Positions 11,495 through 21,736 of a stretch of DNA of 64,000 nucleotides are shown here, piece after piece. The stretch's first letter is position 1. Each line of letters begins with the position of its first letter. The stretch comes from an uncultured Spirochaetaceae bacterium (GTDB lineage Bacteria > Spirochaetota > Spirochaetia > Sphaerochaetales > Sphaerochaetaceae), in NCBI GenBank assembly GCA_944388955.1, contig CALXKJ010000003.1:62001-126000 (forward strand), read 5' to 3'. The translations under genes and the position numbers were made by a program. The notes below the pieces were generated by a model. It was given only the letters and a program-made list of their open reading frames with translations. It had not been told where the DNA came from and made no database searches.

Positions 11495-11594
11495 GGCTCA
11501 ATCCTAGCTTTCACTTCTGTTTTCTTCAAGGAAAATTACTGCAACAAAGATGCAACACTGTGCTTTATCTGGTATCATTTCTGAAGGAGTGCTT

Positions 11595-12557
11595 ATGAAA
11601 GGTGAACGCGTTGCACAGCTGGAGCTCCTTCTCCGGTCTCATCCAGAAGGAATCAGACGAGCAGAGATAGCAAGACGCCTTGGCGTACACAGATCCACGA
11701 TATCAAGATATGTATCTGTACTTTCAGAAAGAATGGATATCTATGAGGAAAACAACCTCATAAAACTCAGAGACAGGGATGAGGAATCATCACCTATGGA
11801 GCTTTCAGTCTATGAAAGCCTGGCATTCAACATGGGCGCAGAAGCTCTTGTCTCCAGCGCGGAGTTCGCGAATCCCCATCTCGCATCGGGGCTAAGGAAG
11901 CTTGCGATGAATCTCCGCTCCTACGCGCCGCGTATCAGCGACAACGCCTTGTTCCTGGCAGATAAAATCGATAAGGAAGTACAGAAGAACAGGAATCTCT
12001 CCGGTCATTACAATCAGATTCTCGAGGTGCTCATCGACTGCTGGGTCTCCGGACATCTTGCAAGACTATCGACAACACTTCCAGATAACGAGGAAATCGA
12101 GATAGCACCCTACTTCATCGGTTATAAAGATGAGGGCGAAGGCAGAAAGCCTATAACAGTCACAGGCCGTCTCAGGCACACGAAGGACATCATCACATTC
12201 GATATCTCTTCCATAACAGAGGCGAGAATGCTTGATGAGACATACACCATCCCAGATAATCTCAAACCATTCCTCCATAGCACAGAGAAAAAATATGATG
12301 CTATCGACATGATTCCACTCAAGCTGTGGCTCAGCGAGAAGAGCGCGCTCAACTCCTTCAGGGAAGTCATCCATGACACCCCGCTTCTTGAAAAAGCACA
12401 GAATGGCAGCTGGATATGCACTATGAAAGCTGAGAATTCAATCGAGCTGATGCTGAGAATCATCCAGAGCGGGACATCTGTTCGGGTTCTGGAGCCCGAA
12501 AGCTTCAGAAGAAAGCTTATAAGTCTGCTTGACAGTATTCTCAGGATGTACCGCTGA
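11595..12557 (+). CDS. WYL-domain transcriptional regulator with N-terminal HTH
   Basis: A 320-residue regulator. Residues 1-60 form a winged helix (IARRLGVHRSTISRYVSVL), and a WYL-like sensor domain lies around 140-220 (EIAPYFIGYKDE, VTGRLRHTKDIITFDIS). WYL domains usually bind a small ligand or nucleotide and control DNA binding. The start at 11595 has AAGGAG 8 nt upstream. Its stop overlaps the ATG of the response regulator by one base (TGATG), so it is the first gene of a WYL-response regulator-kinase operon, an uncommon combination. Confidence 0.75.
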   Translation: MKGERVAQLELLLRSHPEGIRRAEIARRLGVHRSTISRYVSVLSERMDIYEENNLIKLRDRDEESSPMELSVYESLAFNMGAEALVSSAEFANPHLASGLRKLAMNLRSYAPRISDNALFLADKIDKEVQKNRNLSGHYNQILEVLIDCWVSGHLARLSTTLPDNEEIEIAPYFIGYKDEGEGRKPITVTGRLRHTKDIITFDISSITEARMLDETYTIPDNLKPFLHSTEKKYDAIDMIPLKLWLSEKSALNSFREVIHDTPLLEKAQNGSWICTMKAENSIELMLRIIQSGTSVRVLEPESFRRKLISLLDSILRMYR

Positions 12558-14143
12558 TGTATTCGATACTCTTTGTGGATGATGAGGATGAAGCAAGAAA
12601 AGCCATAAAGGAATTCACGCCTTGGAGTGACTATGGATTTGAAACTCCTCGTGAAGCCTCTAATGGACGCGAGGCGCTGGAGATGATTGATGACAATCTT
12701 CCTGATGTGATCATCACAGATATCAGGATGCCATATATGGACGGGATCGAGTTCATTGAGAAAGTCCGTACCGAATACTCATCCTCTGTCGATGTCATAA
12801 TCCTCTCAGGCTATGATGAATTCACATTCGCGCAGACGGCGATGAGACTGAATGTCGCAGATTATGTCCTCAAGCCAGTAAGCATCGAATCGATGAAGGA
12901 AGTGCTGAAAAGGACGAAGGAAAGACTTGATCAGGACAGGGCGAAAGTCTCTGACATGGCAAAGCTTGAAGCATTCTACAACAGTACCATAGACCTCTAT
13001 AGAGAAAAATTCCTTGTCTCATTGATCTTCCCGGCGCGTAAATCAGAGGATTCATTCATTTCCGAGAAAGCAAAGGAATACAATCTCCCTCTCAGTGGCA
13101 ATCTCTTCGCCGTCTCTGTTATAGATTTGCCTCAGGAAACACTATCATCAGTCGCGGTAAGGGAAGTTATCGAGGATGCTGTGAAAAAGAGGAATGATAT
13201 CATCTGCTTCCAATACGAAAGCCAGATTGTCCTCATCTTCATCTCTGATATGGAGAAAAGCTTCTCCACCCTCTTCTCCCGCCAGATATTCAGAACGCTT
13301 TCCATGATGCAATCTGAATTCATCCATTACTTCTCACGCTCATTCTACATAGGTCTCGGCGAGATCGTGACATCAGCTGCAATGCTTCCAGATTCATACA
13401 AAAGCGCGATGATAGCCCTGAATTACTCATCAATATATCCAGAACAGCACATCATTGACATAAGGGACGTTGAATCATCAGAGAGCATCAGCAAGAGTCA
13501 TACTGGAGAGAACCGCTCAGAGCTTGTCATGGCTATCAAATTCGGCAACGCAGAAGATACAGAGAAGGCTGTTCATCCTTTCTTTCAGGGCATCACAGAG
13601 ACAGAGAACATCCAGAATACTGTACTGTCCGTATTGACGATAATCTCTGAGATATGCTCATCGTATGGTAAGAACATCGCAACGCTGCTGGATGGAGAGG
13701 ATTTATTTCTTGCCCTGTCACACGCAAACACGCTCTCAAGGGCGGAAAGCCTCGTCACGAAGCTCGCGATAGCAGCCAATAAAGCAGCATCCGGCATAAG
13801 AGAGAATTCACGTATCCAGTTTGTCGAAAATGCGAAACGTATCATAAAGGAAAAATACAGTGACCCTCTCTTAGGTCTGGATCAGATAGCAGAAGAGACC
13901 TCGGTTTCTCCCGCCTACTTCTCGACGACATTCAAAAAAGAGACAGGACTGTCATTCGTGCAGTATCTCACGAACATCCGCCTTGAGAAAGCCAAGGAAA
14001 TGCTCAGGAACAGTGACGCGAAGACTTATGAGATAGCGGAAATGACAGGATTCTCAGAGCCTAATTACTTCTCTTTCACATTCAAGAAAAACGTGGGAGT
14101 ATCACCTTCACAATACAGGGGGGTGGAAGTGAGGAAGAAGTGA
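12557..14143 (+). CDS. YesN-type response regulator, receiver plus AraC HTH
   Basis: A 528-residue two-component regulator. The receiver domain (1-120) has acidic pair D8-D9, phospho-acceptor D55 in ITDIRMP and lysine in LKPVS. A middle region of about 290 residues of the YesN type precedes a C-terminal AraC double HTH (SVSPAYFSTTFKKETG; TGFSEPNYFSFTFKKNVG). It likely controls a carbohydrate operon, with the adjacent polysaccharide locus or the mgl operon as the nearest candidates. It is coupled at both ends: TGATG with the WYL gene and a 4-nt GTGA overlap with the kinase. Confidence 0.88.
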   Translation: MYSILFVDDEDEARKAIKEFTPWSDYGFETPREASNGREALEMIDDNLPDVIITDIRMPYMDGIEFIEKVRTEYSSSVDVIILSGYDEFTFAQTAMRLNVADYVLKPVSIESMKEVLKRTKERLDQDRAKVSDMAKLEAFYNSTIDLYREKFLVSLIFPARKSEDSFISEKAKEYNLPLSGNLFAVSVIDLPQETLSSVAVREVIEDAVKKRNDIICFQYESQIVLIFISDMEKSFSTLFSRQIFRTLSMMQSEFIHYFSRSFYIGLGEIVTSAAMLPDSYKSAMIALNYSSIYPEQHIIDIRDVESSESISKSHTGENRSELVMAIKFGNAEDTEKAVHPFFQGITETENIQNTVLSVLTIISEICSSYGKNIATLLDGEDLFLALSHANTLSRAESLVTKLAIAANKAASGIRENSRIQFVENAKRIIKEKYSDPLLGLDQIAEETSVSPAYFSTTFKKETGLSFVQYLTNIRLEKAKEMLRNSDAKTYEIAEMTGFSEPNYFSFTFKKNVGVSPSQYRGVEVRKK

Positions 14144-15897
14144 AGAGAAAAGCCCTTTCTATACAGACATTATTCTCCACTTCTATGGCCATGATGATAG
14201 CATCCTCGATTCTCATCATCGGCAGTTTCCTCAGTTTCTTCTTCTCAAAGGCAATAGAAGGCACAGTGCTGACTTCCACTGAAGAGATAGTCACACAGGT
14301 AAACAACAACCTCAATTTCTATATCTCAGATATCATAGGGGTCTCAGACTACGCGAGGAATCTTTCACGTTCTACATCAAATCTAGCAGCCGATGATATA
14401 AAGCTGAGGCTGGAAGCTCTTGTGGATTCGCGTGATGACCTTATCAGAATAACAGTCTTCGATATGAATGGAGATACGATAGTCTCCACTGAATCCGGAA
14501 AGACATGGGATAGGAATGCCGTCATGAGCGAAAAGTGGTTTCAGAGGGCAAAGGATGGGGAAGGTGATTTCTTCTTCACAGGACCTCACACACAGACACT
14601 TTCCGCATCAGATGACATTGTCATTTCATACTCGACCATCATAAATTACGGAGACATAAACAGAGAGACTTCTCCAGCGGTGCTTCTCATCGATCTTAAC
14701 TTCAACGCAGTCTCAAATCTTTCCGAGAACGTCAATCTCTCATCATCTGGGTATATCTACATCATCTCAAACGATGGGAACATCGTCTATCATCCGATGC
14801 AGAATCTCATAGAGCGCGGTGATTTCACCGAAGATCTCGAAAGTGTGAATGAGAATGTGTATGGCACATATATCTCTGAATTCGAAGGAAGCAAGCGCCT
14901 TACGATAATCCAGACAGTAAATCAGACAAGATGGAGGATTGTAGGAGTGGCATTCATGGATGAGCTTCTCAATCCGCTTGTCCTCTTCAGAATCACGCTG
15001 ATTGTGCTGATTGTCACATCAATACTCATAGCGACAATCATATCGAAAAGTATCTCCATGCGCCTTACAAGGCCTCTGAGAGTCCTGGAGGCCGAGATGA
15101 GGGATATCGACTACAGAGTATCAGCAGGAATCCCCTCTCCAAGGCACGCTTCAAAAGAAGTGCTTTCGCTCTATAAGTCATTCAACTCCATGCTGCAGCG
15201 AATCAATGAACTCGTGGAGAAAGTGAAGAATACAGAAGCTGTAAAAAGACAGCGCGAGCTTGACGCTCTTCAGGCAAAGATCAATCCTCACTTCCTATAT
15301 AACACGTTAGATAGCGTTGTATGGATGGCGGAGAGCGGCAATAGCCATGGCGTTGTGAAGATGGTGACATCGCTCGCAAGTCTTTTCAGGATATCAATCG
15401 CGAAGGGCCATGATATCATTACACTGAAAGAGGAGCTATCGCATGTGAGAAGCTATCTCGATATCCAGTCCATGCGCTATAAGGATAAGTTCAGCTTCAC
15501 GATAAATCTTCCGGAAGAACTCGAGGACAGACCTACTATAAAGCTCATTGTCCAGCCGATTGTGGAGAATTCAATCTATCACGGCATCAAATATCTGCAG
15601 GAAGAAGGCAATATCAGCATTATTGTGAAAGAAGGCGGGGAAAATGACATCATCATATCCGTCCGCGATAATGGTATCGGAATGACAGAAGAAACTGTGG
15701 CATCCCTTCTTACTGCGTCAGCAGAACATATCTCTGATGGGAATGGCATAGGACTGAGGAATATAGATGAGAGAATAAAGATATGCTATGGAAATGAATA
15801 TGGTCTCAGGATCACATCAGAGCTGGATGTCGGGACTGAAGTGACGATAAGGATTCCAAAACTCGATCCTATTCCGCCTGTCGTAATCAAGCGATGA
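14140..15897 (+). CDS. YesM-type sensor histidine kinase
   Basis: A 585-residue membrane kinase. The first membrane segment is at about 10-35, then a periplasmic Cache-type sensor to about 285, a second membrane segment (LFRITLIVLIVTSILIAT), a HAMP-like segment, and the His_kinase domain with INPHFLYNTLD and phospho-acceptor H384. The ATPase domain has N-box IVENSIYHGIKY and G-box DNGIGM / NGIGLRNIDER. The GTG start lies in a GTGA overlap with the response-regulator stop, preceded by GAGGAAGAA. It phosphorylates the YesN partner in response to an extracytoplasmic ligand, probably a sugar. Confidence 0.9.
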   Translation: MKRKALSIQTLFSTSMAMMIASSILIIGSFLSFFFSKAIEGTVLTSTEEIVTQVNNNLNFYISDIIGVSDYARNLSRSTSNLAADDIKLRLEALVDSRDDLIRITVFDMNGDTIVSTESGKTWDRNAVMSEKWFQRAKDGEGDFFFTGPHTQTLSASDDIVISYSTIINYGDINRETSPAVLLIDLNFNAVSNLSENVNLSSSGYIYIISNDGNIVYHPMQNLIERGDFTEDLESVNENVYGTYISEFEGSKRLTIIQTVNQTRWRIVGVAFMDELLNPLVLFRITLIVLIVTSILIATIISKSISMRLTRPLRVLEAEMRDIDYRVSAGIPSPRHASKEVLSLYKSFNSMLQRINELVEKVKNTEAVKRQRELDALQAKINPHFLYNTLDSVVWMAESGNSHGVVKMVTSLASLFRISIAKGHDIITLKEELSHVRSYLDIQSMRYKDKFSFTINLPEELEDRPTIKLIVQPIVENSIYHGIKYLQEEGNISIIVKEGGENDIIISVRDNGIGMTEETVASLLTASAEHISDGNGIGLRNIDERIKICYGNEYGLRITSELDVGTEVTIRIPKLDPIPPVVIKR

Positions 15898-16091
15898 CAA
15901 TCTTCACACAATCTACACATTGATTTCCTTACCGAAAGATACCACATAAAGCGTATAGATTATTGAGAGAGGATGTTCGCTATACCCCCTTCATTGCATC
16001 CGCTCTCCCACCCAATGGCAGGAAACTGAAAACAAACATAGAGTGGCTCGATAAGGAGGTGAAAGGAAAAACAAACTATTGCTCTGTCGAG

Positions 16092-16111
16092 GGCCGGCTG
16101 ATCCCCCGGCC
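16092..16111. terminator. GC-rich hairpin between convergent yesM and mglB-like genes
   Basis: Stem GGCCGG (16092-16097) and CCGGCC (16106-16111), 8-nt loop. TTTCATT follows on the plus strand; no U-run on the minus strand. It sits against the stop of the mglB-like gene and about 200 nt after yesM. The rest of 15898-16113 has a second, weaker stem (GAGAG/CTCTC) and no gene I can support. Confidence 0.45.
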
Positions 16112-16113
16112 TT

Positions 16114-17085
16114 TCATTGCATTCTTCGATGAGGTATCCAGACATATTTCCCGTCCATCTCATAGCCAATTGAGGATGAATCGGGATTTCCGTCTTCCGC
16201 AAGAATACATGCTATGTTATACGCAGCTCGGGCTTGGTTGTACGCGTCATTGTAGACAGTGCCGAGAAGAGTCCCATCCTCAAGCGCTTTTCTTCCCTGT
16301 GGAGTTCCATCAACACCTACAACAGGCATGAATGCACCATCCTGGAAATAGCCATATTCCTTTAATGCTTCTATTGCACCCAGTGCCATGTCATCATTGT
16401 TCGCAAATACAGCTTCAATCTGCTCACCGGATCTGTTGAGGAAATCAAGCATGACATCATAGCCCTTATCTTTCTTCCATTCTCCGGAGCTTTCATGGAG
16501 TTTTTCCAATGGGATACCTGCACTAAGAAGTGTTTCGATGAAATATTCAGTCCTTAATTCAGTATCCTGATGTCCTGTCTCACCTTTGATGATTACAAAC
16601 TGAAGGATACCATCACCGTTTTTATCAGCAGAAGGATGAGAGAGCCAGTATTCGGCAAGGATATCCGCAGCAATGGTACCGGCATCTTCTGCATGTGAGC
16701 CGACATAATAGACTTTTTCCCATCTTGCCATATCCTCTCTCACAGGCTCCCTGTTAAAGAAAACAAGCGGGACATCACTGCGTCTGCATTTCTCGATTAT
16801 AACCCCAGAAGCTGTCCGATCCACAGAGTTGACTATTATCGCGTCGTAGCCTTTATCAATGAAATCCTCTATCTCTGAATTCTGCTTCTGCTGTTTACCT
16901 TCAGCGTCGCATACTGTGACAGGAATGCCCTCAGCACTCAGCTCTGTGATTACATTCCTTACTTCTGTTATGAAAGAGTCATCAAAATCATAAATTGCTA
17001 CGCCGATCCTGGTTTCTTCCTCAGCACCGCCCGCAAAAAGCATCGTTGATATGAATATGAAAAGGAAAATAAGAGAGCGTTTCAT
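16114..17085 (-). CDS. canonical MglB-like galactose/glucose-binding protein
   Basis: A 323-residue periplasmic binding protein in standard type I order: TRIGVAIYDFDDSF (25-38) first, then VPLVFFNREP (105-114), the D-x-N-x-D-G calcium loop (ADKNGDGILQF), FANNDDMALGA and VVGVDGTP. The signal peptide ends L-F-A-G-G with no cysteine. It is a paralogue of the permuted MglB at the head of the same operon. The ATG at 17085 lacks a Shine-Dalgarno and sits 4 nt after the U-run of a terminator; the frame is also open to an ATG at 17133 that overlaps the mglC stop as ATGA. A second ligand specificity or a sensing role is possible. Confidence 0.8.
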   Translation of the reverse strand: MKRSLIFLFIFISTMLFAGGAEEETRIGVAIYDFDDSFITEVRNVITELSAEGIPVTVCDAEGKQQKQNSEIEDFIDKGYDAIIVNSVDRTASGVIIEKCRRSDVPLVFFNREPVREDMARWEKVYYVGSHAEDAGTIAADILAEYWLSHPSADKNGDGILQFVIIKGETGHQDTELRTEYFIETLLSAGIPLEKLHESSGEWKKDKGYDVMLDFLNRSGEQIEAVFANNDDMALGAIEALKEYGYFQDGAFMPVVGVDGTPQGRKALEDGTLLGTVYNDAYNQARAAYNIACILAEDGNPDSSSIGYEMDGKYVWIPHRRMQ

Positions 17086-17089
17086 TCTG

Positions 17090-17120
17090 AAAAAAGGAGA
17101 AGCCGGATACCGGCCTCTCC
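17090..17120 (-). terminator. intrinsic terminator/attenuator between mglC and the second mglB
   Basis: On the minus strand: GGAGA-G-GCCGG, loop TAT, CCGGC-T-TCTCC, then TTTTTT. Ten base pairs with one mismatch followed by six U, a textbook intrinsic terminator. It lies between the mglC stop (17130) and the signal-peptide ATG (17085), inside the longer reading frame that starts at 17133. Confidence 0.8.
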
Positions 17121-17129
17121 TGTTGTCTA

Positions 17130-18812
17130 TCATTTCTTCTTCAGATACTTGAGGCTATCGAGTGTGACAGCTGCAAGAATGATGAAGCCTTTGAACACAA
17201 ACTGGAGGTTCGTGTCGATACCAAGGAATGTAAGGCAGTAAGTAAGCGAGGTGAAGATTATAACACCGACTACAGCACCGCCTATCTTTCCGATACCACC
17301 ATTGAATGAGATACCGCCGACAACACAGGCCGCGATGGCATCCATCTCATATCCCTGTCCGGTTCCAGCAGAAGCATTTGCTCTGAAAGCCTCAAGGAAT
17401 GCGCCACAGCCATAGAAGACGCCAGCCATGATGAATACTCCAAGTGTCACCCAGAAGACTGAGATTCCAGACACAGCCGCAGCCTCGGAGTTGCCACCGA
17501 CAGCATACATATTCTTTCCGAATGTTGTCTTATTCCAGATCAACCATGCGATAATCACTGCGATGATTGCCGGAATGATAAGCTTCGGGAATGTTATAGC
17601 CTGCCCATTCGAGAGATATCCCAAGAGCCATCTTCCGCCGATAAGATCCTTGATATTCCTATCAATAGAGCCAACCGGAGTTCCAGATGTTCCGAAGAAC
17701 AGCAATCCGTAAATGATAAGCTGTGTGGACATCGTTGAGATGAATGGGTGCATCTTCAGCTTTGCGGAGAAGAATCCAGCGAATGCTGAGAACGCTGCAC
17801 AGAACAGAACGGAAAGCACAAGAGCCATCAATACTCTAAAAAGCATCGGGAGAGAATCGAAATTCCATGGTCCCATTCCCATGAATGAAACGATATTCGT
17901 GCCCGGATGCAGGATAAGGCCTGTCGTGACTGAGCCAAGCGCAACCATTCGCCCGACGGAGAGGTCGGTACCTGCAAGGAGAATAAGACCAGCGACTCCA
18001 AGTGCATAGAACATCCTCGTGGAGCACTGCTCGAGAATCGTGAGGATATTAGGCAGTGTCAGCAGATTTCCCGCTCCCTGAAGCGGCGCGAGGATTATAC
18101 AGACAATGAAGAATATGAGAATCGTTATGTAAAGACCATTCGAGAGGAAGAACTGTGACGGACGGAAATTCGTCTTGTAGTTCAGCCACTTCATCTTCAT
18201 ATCTTCCGCGAAGTTCGTCTTTCCATTCCTCAGCTCTCTGTTCTTCTGGATGTGATCGACATACGCCTGGTTCTTAGCAGCCTTGCACTTGTCGATTTCA
18301 TGGATATAGCGGCTCTTCGCATCATAAAGTGCACTCTTTGTCTCATATGCAGCTACTGAAAGCTCATTCTTGAGGACCTTCGGATCGCCCGATGAATACT
18401 CAGAGCGTATGTTAGCCTTTCTTTTCTCGCCATTGGCTTTGATTTCCAGAACTTCCTTCTGATAGTAAGCCTTGGCCTTGGCCATCCTCGCGTTCTGATA
18501 CTCATTGACTTCATCCTCAATGGGCTTCGACACTGAGTTGACGTAGCGTACAGCCTCCTTGGCAAGCACTGCAACCTCATTCTTCTTCGAGACCGCGACC
18601 TTCTTTGCCTTCTCAAGCTCAGCTTTCTTCTCAGCTATCGCTTTGGTGCGATCGGAAGCTTCCATCAGCTGGTTCTTCTTCAGTGCGGCTATCTCAATCC
18701 TGAGATCTGCAGCTCTCGTTTCGCCATCCTTCCTCAGAGCTCTGAGGCGGGCGGAATAATCCTGTATTTTCTTATCTTCCTCAATTGACCTGATTTCAAT
18801 ATTATCTGCCAT
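17130..18812 (-). CDS. mglC: MglC-type sugar ABC permease with N-terminal coiled-coil extension
   Basis: A 560-residue CUT2 permease. The C-terminal 340 residues from about 220 are a normal MglC/RbsC permease (GLILLAGTDLSVGRMVALGSV; AVGGNSEAAAVSGI; ACVVGGISFNGGIGKIGG). Residues 1-215 are a lysine/glutamate/alanine-rich, largely helical cytoplasmic segment with heptads (IAEKKAELEKAKKVAV) not present in the usual 330-350 residue family members. Start ATG at 18812 has AAAGGAGG upstream. Its stop overlaps a possible start of the second mglB. The extension could scaffold the ATPase or report transport; that is inference. Confidence 0.88.
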   Translation of the reverse strand: MADNIEIRSIEEDKKIQDYSARLRALRKDGETRAADLRIEIAALKKNQLMEASDRTKAIAEKKAELEKAKKVAVSKKNEVAVLAKEAVRYVNSVSKPIEDEVNEYQNARMAKAKAYYQKEVLEIKANGEKRKANIRSEYSSGDPKVLKNELSVAAYETKSALYDAKSRYIHEIDKCKAAKNQAYVDHIQKNRELRNGKTNFAEDMKMKWLNYKTNFRPSQFFLSNGLYITILIFFIVCIILAPLQGAGNLLTLPNILTILEQCSTRMFYALGVAGLILLAGTDLSVGRMVALGSVTTGLILHPGTNIVSFMGMGPWNFDSLPMLFRVLMALVLSVLFCAAFSAFAGFFSAKLKMHPFISTMSTQLIIYGLLFFGTSGTPVGSIDRNIKDLIGGRWLLGYLSNGQAITFPKLIIPAIIAVIIAWLIWNKTTFGKNMYAVGGNSEAAAVSGISVFWVTLGVFIMAGVFYGCGAFLEAFRANASAGTGQGYEMDAIAACVVGGISFNGGIGKIGGAVVGVIIFTSLTYCLTFLGIDTNLQFVFKGFIILAAVTLDSLKYLKKK

Positions 18813-18824
18813 CCCATCCTCCTT

Positions 18825-20321
18825 TTACAGATACTTTGCTGAAAGCCTCAGGAGCTCTTCCTGATTCGTTTCCTTCGTGTTGACGATACCGGCAAGCTTA
18901 TGGTTGGACATGACCGCAATCCTGTTTGTGATACCTAGAATCTCAGGCATCTCAGACGAAACCACGATAATCGTCTTCCCTTCTTTGGCCATCTTTATAA
19001 TCAGCTGATAAATCTCATACTTCGCACCGACATCAATGCCTCTTGTCGGCTCATCCATGAGGAATATCTGGGGTGCGCGTTCAAGCCACTTGCCTATGAT
19101 GACTTTCTGCTGATTTCCTCCGGAAAGCGCCGTGATAAGCTCATCAGGAGAAACACACTTGGTGTTCATCTGCTTTATCTCTCTCGTGGCTGCTTCGTAC
19201 ATCTTCTTGTTGTCCAGAAGACGCATCGTCTTATATGCCTCAAGATTCGTGATAGTCGTATTGAACTTGATAGTATCCTTTCCGAACATGCCATTGAGCT
19301 TTCTCTCTTCAGTGACAAGCGCGAAAGAATGATTCATAGCCTGCTTTGATGAGTGGAAGCTCATCTTCTTTCCACCAACGATAAGCTGTCCTGACGCGAT
19401 TGTCCTGATGCCGAACATCGACTCAAGAAGCTCGCTTCTGCCAGCTCCGACAAGCCCGTATATTCCGAATATCTCACCCTTTCTTACAGAGAATGAGATA
19501 TCTTCAAGTACAGGCTCATACTTCGTTGTAAGATGGCTTACCTCAAGGAATGGATCACCCGGGGTGTTATCCACATCGGGGAAACGCTTATCGAGAGAGC
19601 GGCCAACCATTGCGGCGATAAGCTCATTCATATCTGTATCTGATGTATGCTTCTTGAAGATCATCTTGCCATCACGAAGCACCGCTACATCGTCACATAT
19701 CTCAAATATCTCATCCATCTTATGGGAAATATAGACGAATGAAACACCTTGCTTTCTAAGATCATCGACTATCGAGAAGAGCTTTTTAACCTCCCTTTCA
19801 GTAAGGGAGCTGGTAGGCTCGTCAAGAACGATAAGCTTCGCGTCATATGACACGGCCTTCGCGATCTCAACCATCTGGCGCTGAGATACTGACATCGTTC
19901 TCATGACAGTCTTTGGATTGACATTCATCTTAAGACGCGCGAAGAGATTATTCGCTTCCCTGAGCATCCTCGCCTCGTCTATCATTCCGCCTTTTGTCGG
20001 ATAACGGCCAAGGAAGAGATTATCTGTAACCGTGCGGTCGAGACACTGCTGAAGCTCCTGATGCACCATCGCGACACCATTCTCGAGAGCTTCCTTCGGT
20101 CCTCTGAAATCCACCGGCCTTCCAAAGAGGTTGATCTGCCCCTCATCTTTCGCGTAGATGCCAAAGAGGCACTTCATCATCGTGGACTTGCCTGCGCCAT
20201 TCTCACCCATCAGACCGCAGACTGTACCTTCTTCAACCGTTAGGTTTATTCCATCAAGAACCCTGTTCTTACCGAAGGATTTTGACAGATTCTTTATTTC
20301 CAAAACAGTTTTTCCACTCAT
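18825..20321 (-). CDS. mglA: MglA-type sugar ABC transporter ATPase (two nucleotide-binding domains)
   Basis: A 498-residue duplicated ATPase. Domain 1 has Walker A GENGAGKST, signature VSQRQMVEIAKAV and Walker B LIVLDEPTSSL. Domain 2 has degenerate Walker A GLVGAGRSE, signature LSGGNQQKVIIGKWL and Walker B IFLMDEPTRGIDVGAKYEIY. This asymmetry is usual for CUT2 ATPases. It energises MglC for glucose/galactose uptake. The start at 20321 follows GGAAGGAAG; an upstream in-frame start has no site. It lies 12 nt before mglC. Confidence 0.93.
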   Translation of the reverse strand: MSGKTVLEIKNLSKSFGKNRVLDGINLTVEEGTVCGLMGENGAGKSTMMKCLFGIYAKDEGQINLFGRPVDFRGPKEALENGVAMVHQELQQCLDRTVTDNLFLGRYPTKGGMIDEARMLREANNLFARLKMNVNPKTVMRTMSVSQRQMVEIAKAVSYDAKLIVLDEPTSSLTEREVKKLFSIVDDLRKQGVSFVYISHKMDEIFEICDDVAVLRDGKMIFKKHTSDTDMNELIAAMVGRSLDKRFPDVDNTPGDPFLEVSHLTTKYEPVLEDISFSVRKGEIFGIYGLVGAGRSELLESMFGIRTIASGQLIVGGKKMSFHSSKQAMNHSFALVTEERKLNGMFGKDTIKFNTTITNLEAYKTMRLLDNKKMYEAATREIKQMNTKCVSPDELITALSGGNQQKVIIGKWLERAPQIFLMDEPTRGIDVGAKYEIYQLIIKMAKEGKTIIVVSSEMPEILGITNRIAVMSNHKLAGIVNTKETNQEELLRLSAKYL

Positions 20322-20356: not shown

Positions 20357-20377
20357 GGCGGAAGCTTTGCCTCCGCC
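20357..20377 (-). promoter_or_regulatory. intercistronic hairpin after permuted mglB
   Basis: GGCGGA and TCCGCC with inner GGC/GCT pairing around loop AAA gives a 9-bp stem including one G-U pair. It lies between the binding-protein stop (20402) and mglA and lacks a U-run. A probable RNA stabiliser raising binding-protein level over the ATPase. Confidence 0.6.

Positions 20378-20401: not shown

Positions 20402-21736
<1,335 letters not shown>

Follow-up and report, generated by a model that had tools for sequence, protein, structure and literature searches.

An operon terminator retained in front of a second MglB-type binding-protein gene in the genus of Candidatus Ornithospirochaeta

The window analysed here, a stretch of 64,000 nucleotides, comes from a MAG assigned, within a group of gut spirochaetes, to the genus of Candidatus Ornithospirochaeta and carries on its minus strand a transporter operon in the order mglB1, mglA, mglC, mglB2. 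The first gene, mglB1 (20402..21610), codes for the binding protein of the transporter and matches the glucose/galactose-binding lipoprotein 5jx2 (E 1.4e-179), which we take to be that of Treponema pallidum; mglA (18825..20321; Pfam ABC_tran), whose start is an ATG behind a Shine-Dalgarno (SD) sequence, codes for the ATPase, and mglC (17130..18812; Pfam BPD_transp_2) for the permease. The mglC product has 560 aa, its match to the permease domain starts only at residue 255, and the stretch before the domain is long, charged and coiled-coil-like in look. The last gene, mglB2 (16114..17085; Pfam Peripla_BP_4), codes for an MglB-type glucose/galactose-binding protein with a signal peptide and the start MKRSL; in our search its closest named relative was Ca. 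O. stercoravium, with 74% identity. On the plus strand lie a gene for a response regulator with an AraC-type DNA-binding domain (12557..14143), which adjoins the kinase gene in relatives, and a histidine kinase gene (14140..15897; dCache, HAMP and His_kinase domains) that is convergent with mglB2. Where mglB2 and the kinase gene run towards each other, a GC-rich inverted repeat, short and followed by a T-rich tail, lies between their ends (16096-16111) and may be a terminator shared by both.

The best solved relatives of mglB2 are MglB-type proteins (8fxu, E 1.6e-100; 1glg, E 1.2e-66) and differ from the 5jx2 lipoprotein matched by mglB1, so that a recent duplication of mglB1 was rejected as its source. 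The aligned blocks hold what we presume to be the sugar contacts, namely DDxF, the N of FFNREP, the H, D and R of GHQDTELR, and further W, N, D and N residues.

The genes mglC and mglB2 are co-directional and 44 nt apart, and a predicted intrinsic terminator stands between them. Its hairpin, AGGAGAGGCCGG-TAT-CCGGCTTCTCCT (17121-17095, minus strand; loop UAU), has a stem of 12 pairs (given also as 11-12 bp), among them eight G-C and one G-U, and begins about 8-9 nt past the mglC stop (TGA, 17132-17130). It is followed by a run of six U (17090..17095, minus strand), the first of which can pair, and the four nucleotides CAGA separate the end of this run at 17090 from the mglB2 ATG at 17085. This is the form of an intrinsic terminator, a GC-rich hairpin and then a U-rich tract, and the folding energy of the spacer is -23.0 kcal/mol (z = -6.1 relative to dinucleotide shuffles). 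In a scan of 12500-19500, which gave 10 terminator-like sites versus 4.6 (sd 1.9) in shuffles, no hairpin was longer. The initial annotation had seen a terminator in front of the last gene, and its position, its six U and the 4-nt gap to the ATG all stand; the 10-bp stem that it described has 12 pairs. It had also stated that the signal-peptide ATG lacks an SD, and the duplex energy at this start, +0.2 kcal/mol versus -12.6 for mglB1 and -11.6 for mglC, bears this out. A putative SD, AGGAGAGG, lies within the 5' arm of the hairpin, but there it is engaged in the stem, and some 30 nt separate it from the mglB2 start.

How does this junction look in other genomes? The mglC gene was found in 40 of the 48 genomes that represent the genus, and the junction behind it was inspected in each of the 40: mglB2 comes next in 24 and is absent there in 16. 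A hairpin follows the mglC stop in all 40, with mglB2 (24/24) or without it (16/16), the method reporting the best hairpin of each spacer, and the fold z-score is below -2 in 23/24 and 15/16 junctions, respectively. By a strict core parse, at least 4 T are present in the 8 nt after the stem in 36 of the 40; two exceptions, G008 (1 T) and G025 (3 T), both carry mglB2, and in the other two, G032 and G011, the parse caught an inner stem. Across the 24 mglB2 spacers the stem covaries: seven of the ten consensus pairs form in every genome, and up to four pair types are found at one stem position. Because it is both conserved and covarying, the predicted hairpin is more than a product of chance. The comparison was extended to 40 genomes outside the genus, chosen from 87 with a match among 394 genomes of the class, several of whose stretches end at contig ends. 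A terminator-like site follows mglC in 18/20 genomes of the same family (sister genera), where mglB2 follows in 0/20, and in 12/20 genomes of other families, where mglB2 follows in two: G108, which has a hairpin, and G052, which has none.

Since the hairpin is present after mglC in 40/40 genomes of the genus and in 18/20 of the sister genera, which have no mglB2 behind it, the predicted terminator is the own end terminator of the mglB1-mglA-mglC transporter operon, independent of the gene behind. It does not need mglB2, yet it stays, to judge from these junctions, where mglB2 is present. The comparison with the mglB2-less genomes is the decisive evidence.

Two further features bear on the expression of mglB2. 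Its start lies just before the signal peptide in all 24 relatives that carry the gene, and an SD is found there in 6/24, versus 59% of 284 ORFs of the source genome whose starts were taken, uncurated, as the first ATGs (p = 0.002). In addition, codon adaptation drops at each hairpin of the operon, from mglB1 (CAI 0.861) to mglC (0.704) and mglA (0.685), and again to mglB2 (0.598, which ranks at the 23rd percentile among 286 ORFs). With a reference set from the source genome, the same order was obtained in 11 of the 12 relatives with all four genes (13 loci, L034 being left out for lack of mglA). The other hairpin, in the gap between mglB1 and mglA (20357..20377, minus strand), is strong but U-poor and was seen in the window and in 12/12 relatives folded; this is the textbook site for a terminator that sets the ratio between binding protein and translocator. 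The CAI gradient and the mglB1–mglA hairpin fit the published control of ABC-importer ratios by internal terminators. For lower transcription of mglB2, codon bias gives indirect support, and a low codon bias could have other causes.

What might be the role of the last gene? In Paenibacillus, Clostridium and Sphaerochaeta loci, a relative of mglB2 precedes its own mglA and mglC, and a similar kinase is often nearby. Within the genus, mglB2 stands behind another transporter, and in 19 of the 24 loci examined it is convergent with the genes for kinase, response regulator and one more regulator; of the remaining five, four are cut off where their contigs end and one, G063, shows no kinase across the 2.7 kb covered. 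The binding-protein and kinase genes go together: of the 48 genomes, the 24 with the one are exactly those with the other. This co-occurrence spans seven inferred changes on the mglC tree, and on supported branches 5/5 independent pairs agree (sign test p = 0.06). G028, the sister of G012, is without mglB2, kinase and response regulator, and there the next regulator gene directly follows the mglC terminator. The regulator gene at 11550-12557 of the window is kept near mglC in G028, G004 and G065, all without mglB2 and kinase, as if mglB2, kinase and response regulator had been lost as a block. The exact co-occurrence of mglB2 and the kinase suggests that mglB2 codes for a sensory binding protein of the kinase/response regulator pair, of which few copies may be needed.

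We propose, as a reading that we consider fairly probable, that leaky read-through past the retained operon terminator keeps the output of mglB2 low and that its product has a sensory role. The terminator would have been kept as an internal, leaky one where mglB2 follows; most polymerases would stop after mglC and a minority would read through into mglB2, and the start without an SD would cut the output further. The MglB2 protein would thus be scarce relative to the transporter, as would fit a sensor for the neighbouring kinase and response regulator. Since no more than 12 nt separate the mglC stop from the start of the full stem in 14/24 genomes, a ribosome on this stop, or one restarting at the ATGA that overlaps it, may raise read-through. 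We infer partial read-through, a low protein level and the sensory role; the hairpin, its conservation, covariation and presence without mglB2, the missing SD, the codon gradient and the kinase co-occurrence are read from the sequence itself. With leaky termination sufficing for some expression, the earlier view that the last gene is otherwise off is too strong. Weaker U tracts were rejected as a proof of leakiness: they are not significantly weaker at mglB2 junctions than at operon ends (p = 0.40-0.56; 0.06-0.09 with another parse), so that the sequence by itself does not reveal leakiness. Leaky read-through is also opposed by G052, outside the family, in which mglB2 follows mglC without a hairpin, and by the finding of Wu et al. 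2022 (PMC9045158) that stem-loops in Clostridia go with binding-protein genes at the 5' end, those at the 3' end more often having promoters.

In an alternative that we regard as unlikely, termination would be relieved by translation, ribosomes restarting at the ATGA (17130..17133, minus strand) or pausing on the mglC stop opening the hairpin and delivering translation to the SD-less mglB2. The ATG at 17133-17131 overlaps the mglC stop, and the initial annotation is borne out in that the frame ATGA-MIDNRRGRYPASPFFR-MKRSL, with a leader of 16 codons, is open through the hairpin in the window, as is the path in the closest relative, G030. The same note suggested that ribosomes entering this frame could open the terminator, and the comparison does not support such a device. 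From the ATGA register the frame enters mglB2 in G000, G030, G016 and G033, and in G027 with an ATA; an in-frame leader from ATG or GTG is thus found in 4/24 genomes (5 with the ATA) versus 4.7 expected from three frames, genomes being treated as independent of kinship, which is the level of chance and no sign of a conserved reading frame through the hairpin. As to the outcome that had been named as refuting the idea, conservation of only the downstream start, it largely holds, the start before the signal peptide being universal among these genomes and the leader not. Moreover, a start codon (ATG or GTG) overlaps the mglC stop in 22/24 genomes with mglB2 and in 12/16 without it (Fisher p = 0.20), and the overlapping frame is open across the hairpin in 14/22 and 6/12 of these, respectively (p = 0.49), so that ATGA and open frames are equally present where no mglB2 follows. 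The leader ATG is itself without an SD (-1.3 kcal/mol), and a review (PMC7858274) puts termination at close to 100% where a terminator lies within 100 nt of the beginning of a reading frame. Where a Lys codon precedes a TGA stop, an open ATGA frame across a terminator can arise as a by-product, and such a comparison is needed before it is taken for a coupling device.

On the other side, coupling is favoured by the absence of an SD from the mglB2 start in 18/24 genomes, by the closeness of stem and stop in the 14 genomes mentioned above, and by frame-compatible paths, which, with termination near the mglB2 start counted, number 14/24 versus 10.0 expected (P = 0.04). With a real start codon required the figure is 12/22 versus 9.3 (P = 0.12), and a termination-reinitiation hop model fits 18/24 versus 14.5 expected (P = 0.06; 0.12 and 0.15 with two other settings); all these values treat the genomes as independent of kinship. 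Together they give a weak hint of a translational delivery to mglB2, which fits the scarcity of SD sequences at its start. The core stem starts at a median of 17.5 nt past the stop in genomes with mglB2 versus 21.5 nt without (p = 0.03; full stem, p = 0.07), but each genome was counted as independent and the two misparsed rows, G032 and G011, were included, for which reasons this difference was set aside. The distance from stop to stem was also tried as a means of telling runaway from coupled transcription: in 464 kb of the source genome, 31 of 361 genes have a terminator-like site, and 11 of the 31 sites begin at most 12 nt past the stop, numbers too small for a decision. That ribosomes leaving mglC pass the terminator, either by extending in frame or by short hops of reinitiation, and that this is the main route to the SD-less start, seems to us rather improbable; if true, the number of sugar-sensor copies would depend on how actively the transporter is being translated and not on a fixed leak.

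We think it equally improbable that mglB2 has its own promoter inside mglC, with the hairpin in its leader or irrelevant, even if promoters are reported (PMC9045158) for 52.9% of the intergenic regions examined before 3'-end binding-protein genes in Clostridia. The initial annotation had named a separate promoter in 17090-17200 that drives the gene as what would refute its reading, and at 17085-17300 of the minus strand no promoter-like site was found in a scan that took in sigma-70-type sites only, a scope that leaves this rival some room. A hidden promoter was also sought through synonymous conservation and rejected, the mglC of mglB2-bearing genomes giving no signal of extra constraint, and a transcript from an upstream start would still meet the terminator. 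Finally, we hold it very improbable that the hairpin works as a regulated attenuator that either a trans factor or a ligand-binding RNA would open: a stem motif, GCYGGGC...GCYCRGC, does recur in the genus, but known RNA families were rejected after an Rfam search with none at gathering score, LoaP-type antitermination was rejected with only one NusG-domain protein found in the 95.6% complete genome, spacers of 39-67 nt would leave little room for a competing helix, and the junctions without mglB2 are alike in form.

With leaky read-through past the retained terminator as the favoured reading, the end terminator of the operon would double as an internal one before a probable sensor gene, and the genus offers a natural series with a terminator at the same site, 24 genomes with the downstream gene and 16 without. 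An internal terminator that sets protein ratios is a familiar kind of element. Li et al. 2015, as summarized in a review (PMC7858274), reported that coupled ribosomes can antiterminate intrinsic terminators in reading frames; our case is alike in that the terminator lies inside a possible reading frame, but this frame is putative and unconserved and its leader has only 16 codons. A precedent for a second binding protein that works with a kinase is CuaD of Ruminiclostridium cellulolyticum, where CuaD-CuaS-CuaR is described (PMC10384115) as a three-component sensing system in which the gene for a second sugar-binding protein likewise lies beside a two-component system thought to control a sugar importer. 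Unlike CuaD, mglB2 is of the MglB type and closes the transporter operon, with a terminator in front of it, and its contact with the kinase is putative. A further close parallel is with the ABC-importer operons of Clostridia, where internal intrinsic terminators have been measured (Wu et al. 2022, PMC9045158): there too a hairpin and U-rich tract lie between genes of one operon, the upstream genes being expected to be expressed more highly, and the mglB1–mglA hairpin is a direct match to this arrangement. Here, in contrast, a terminator whose action is predicted from sequence is also found at the opposite end of the operon, where it separates the permease from the 3'-end binding protein of a kinase/regulator set.
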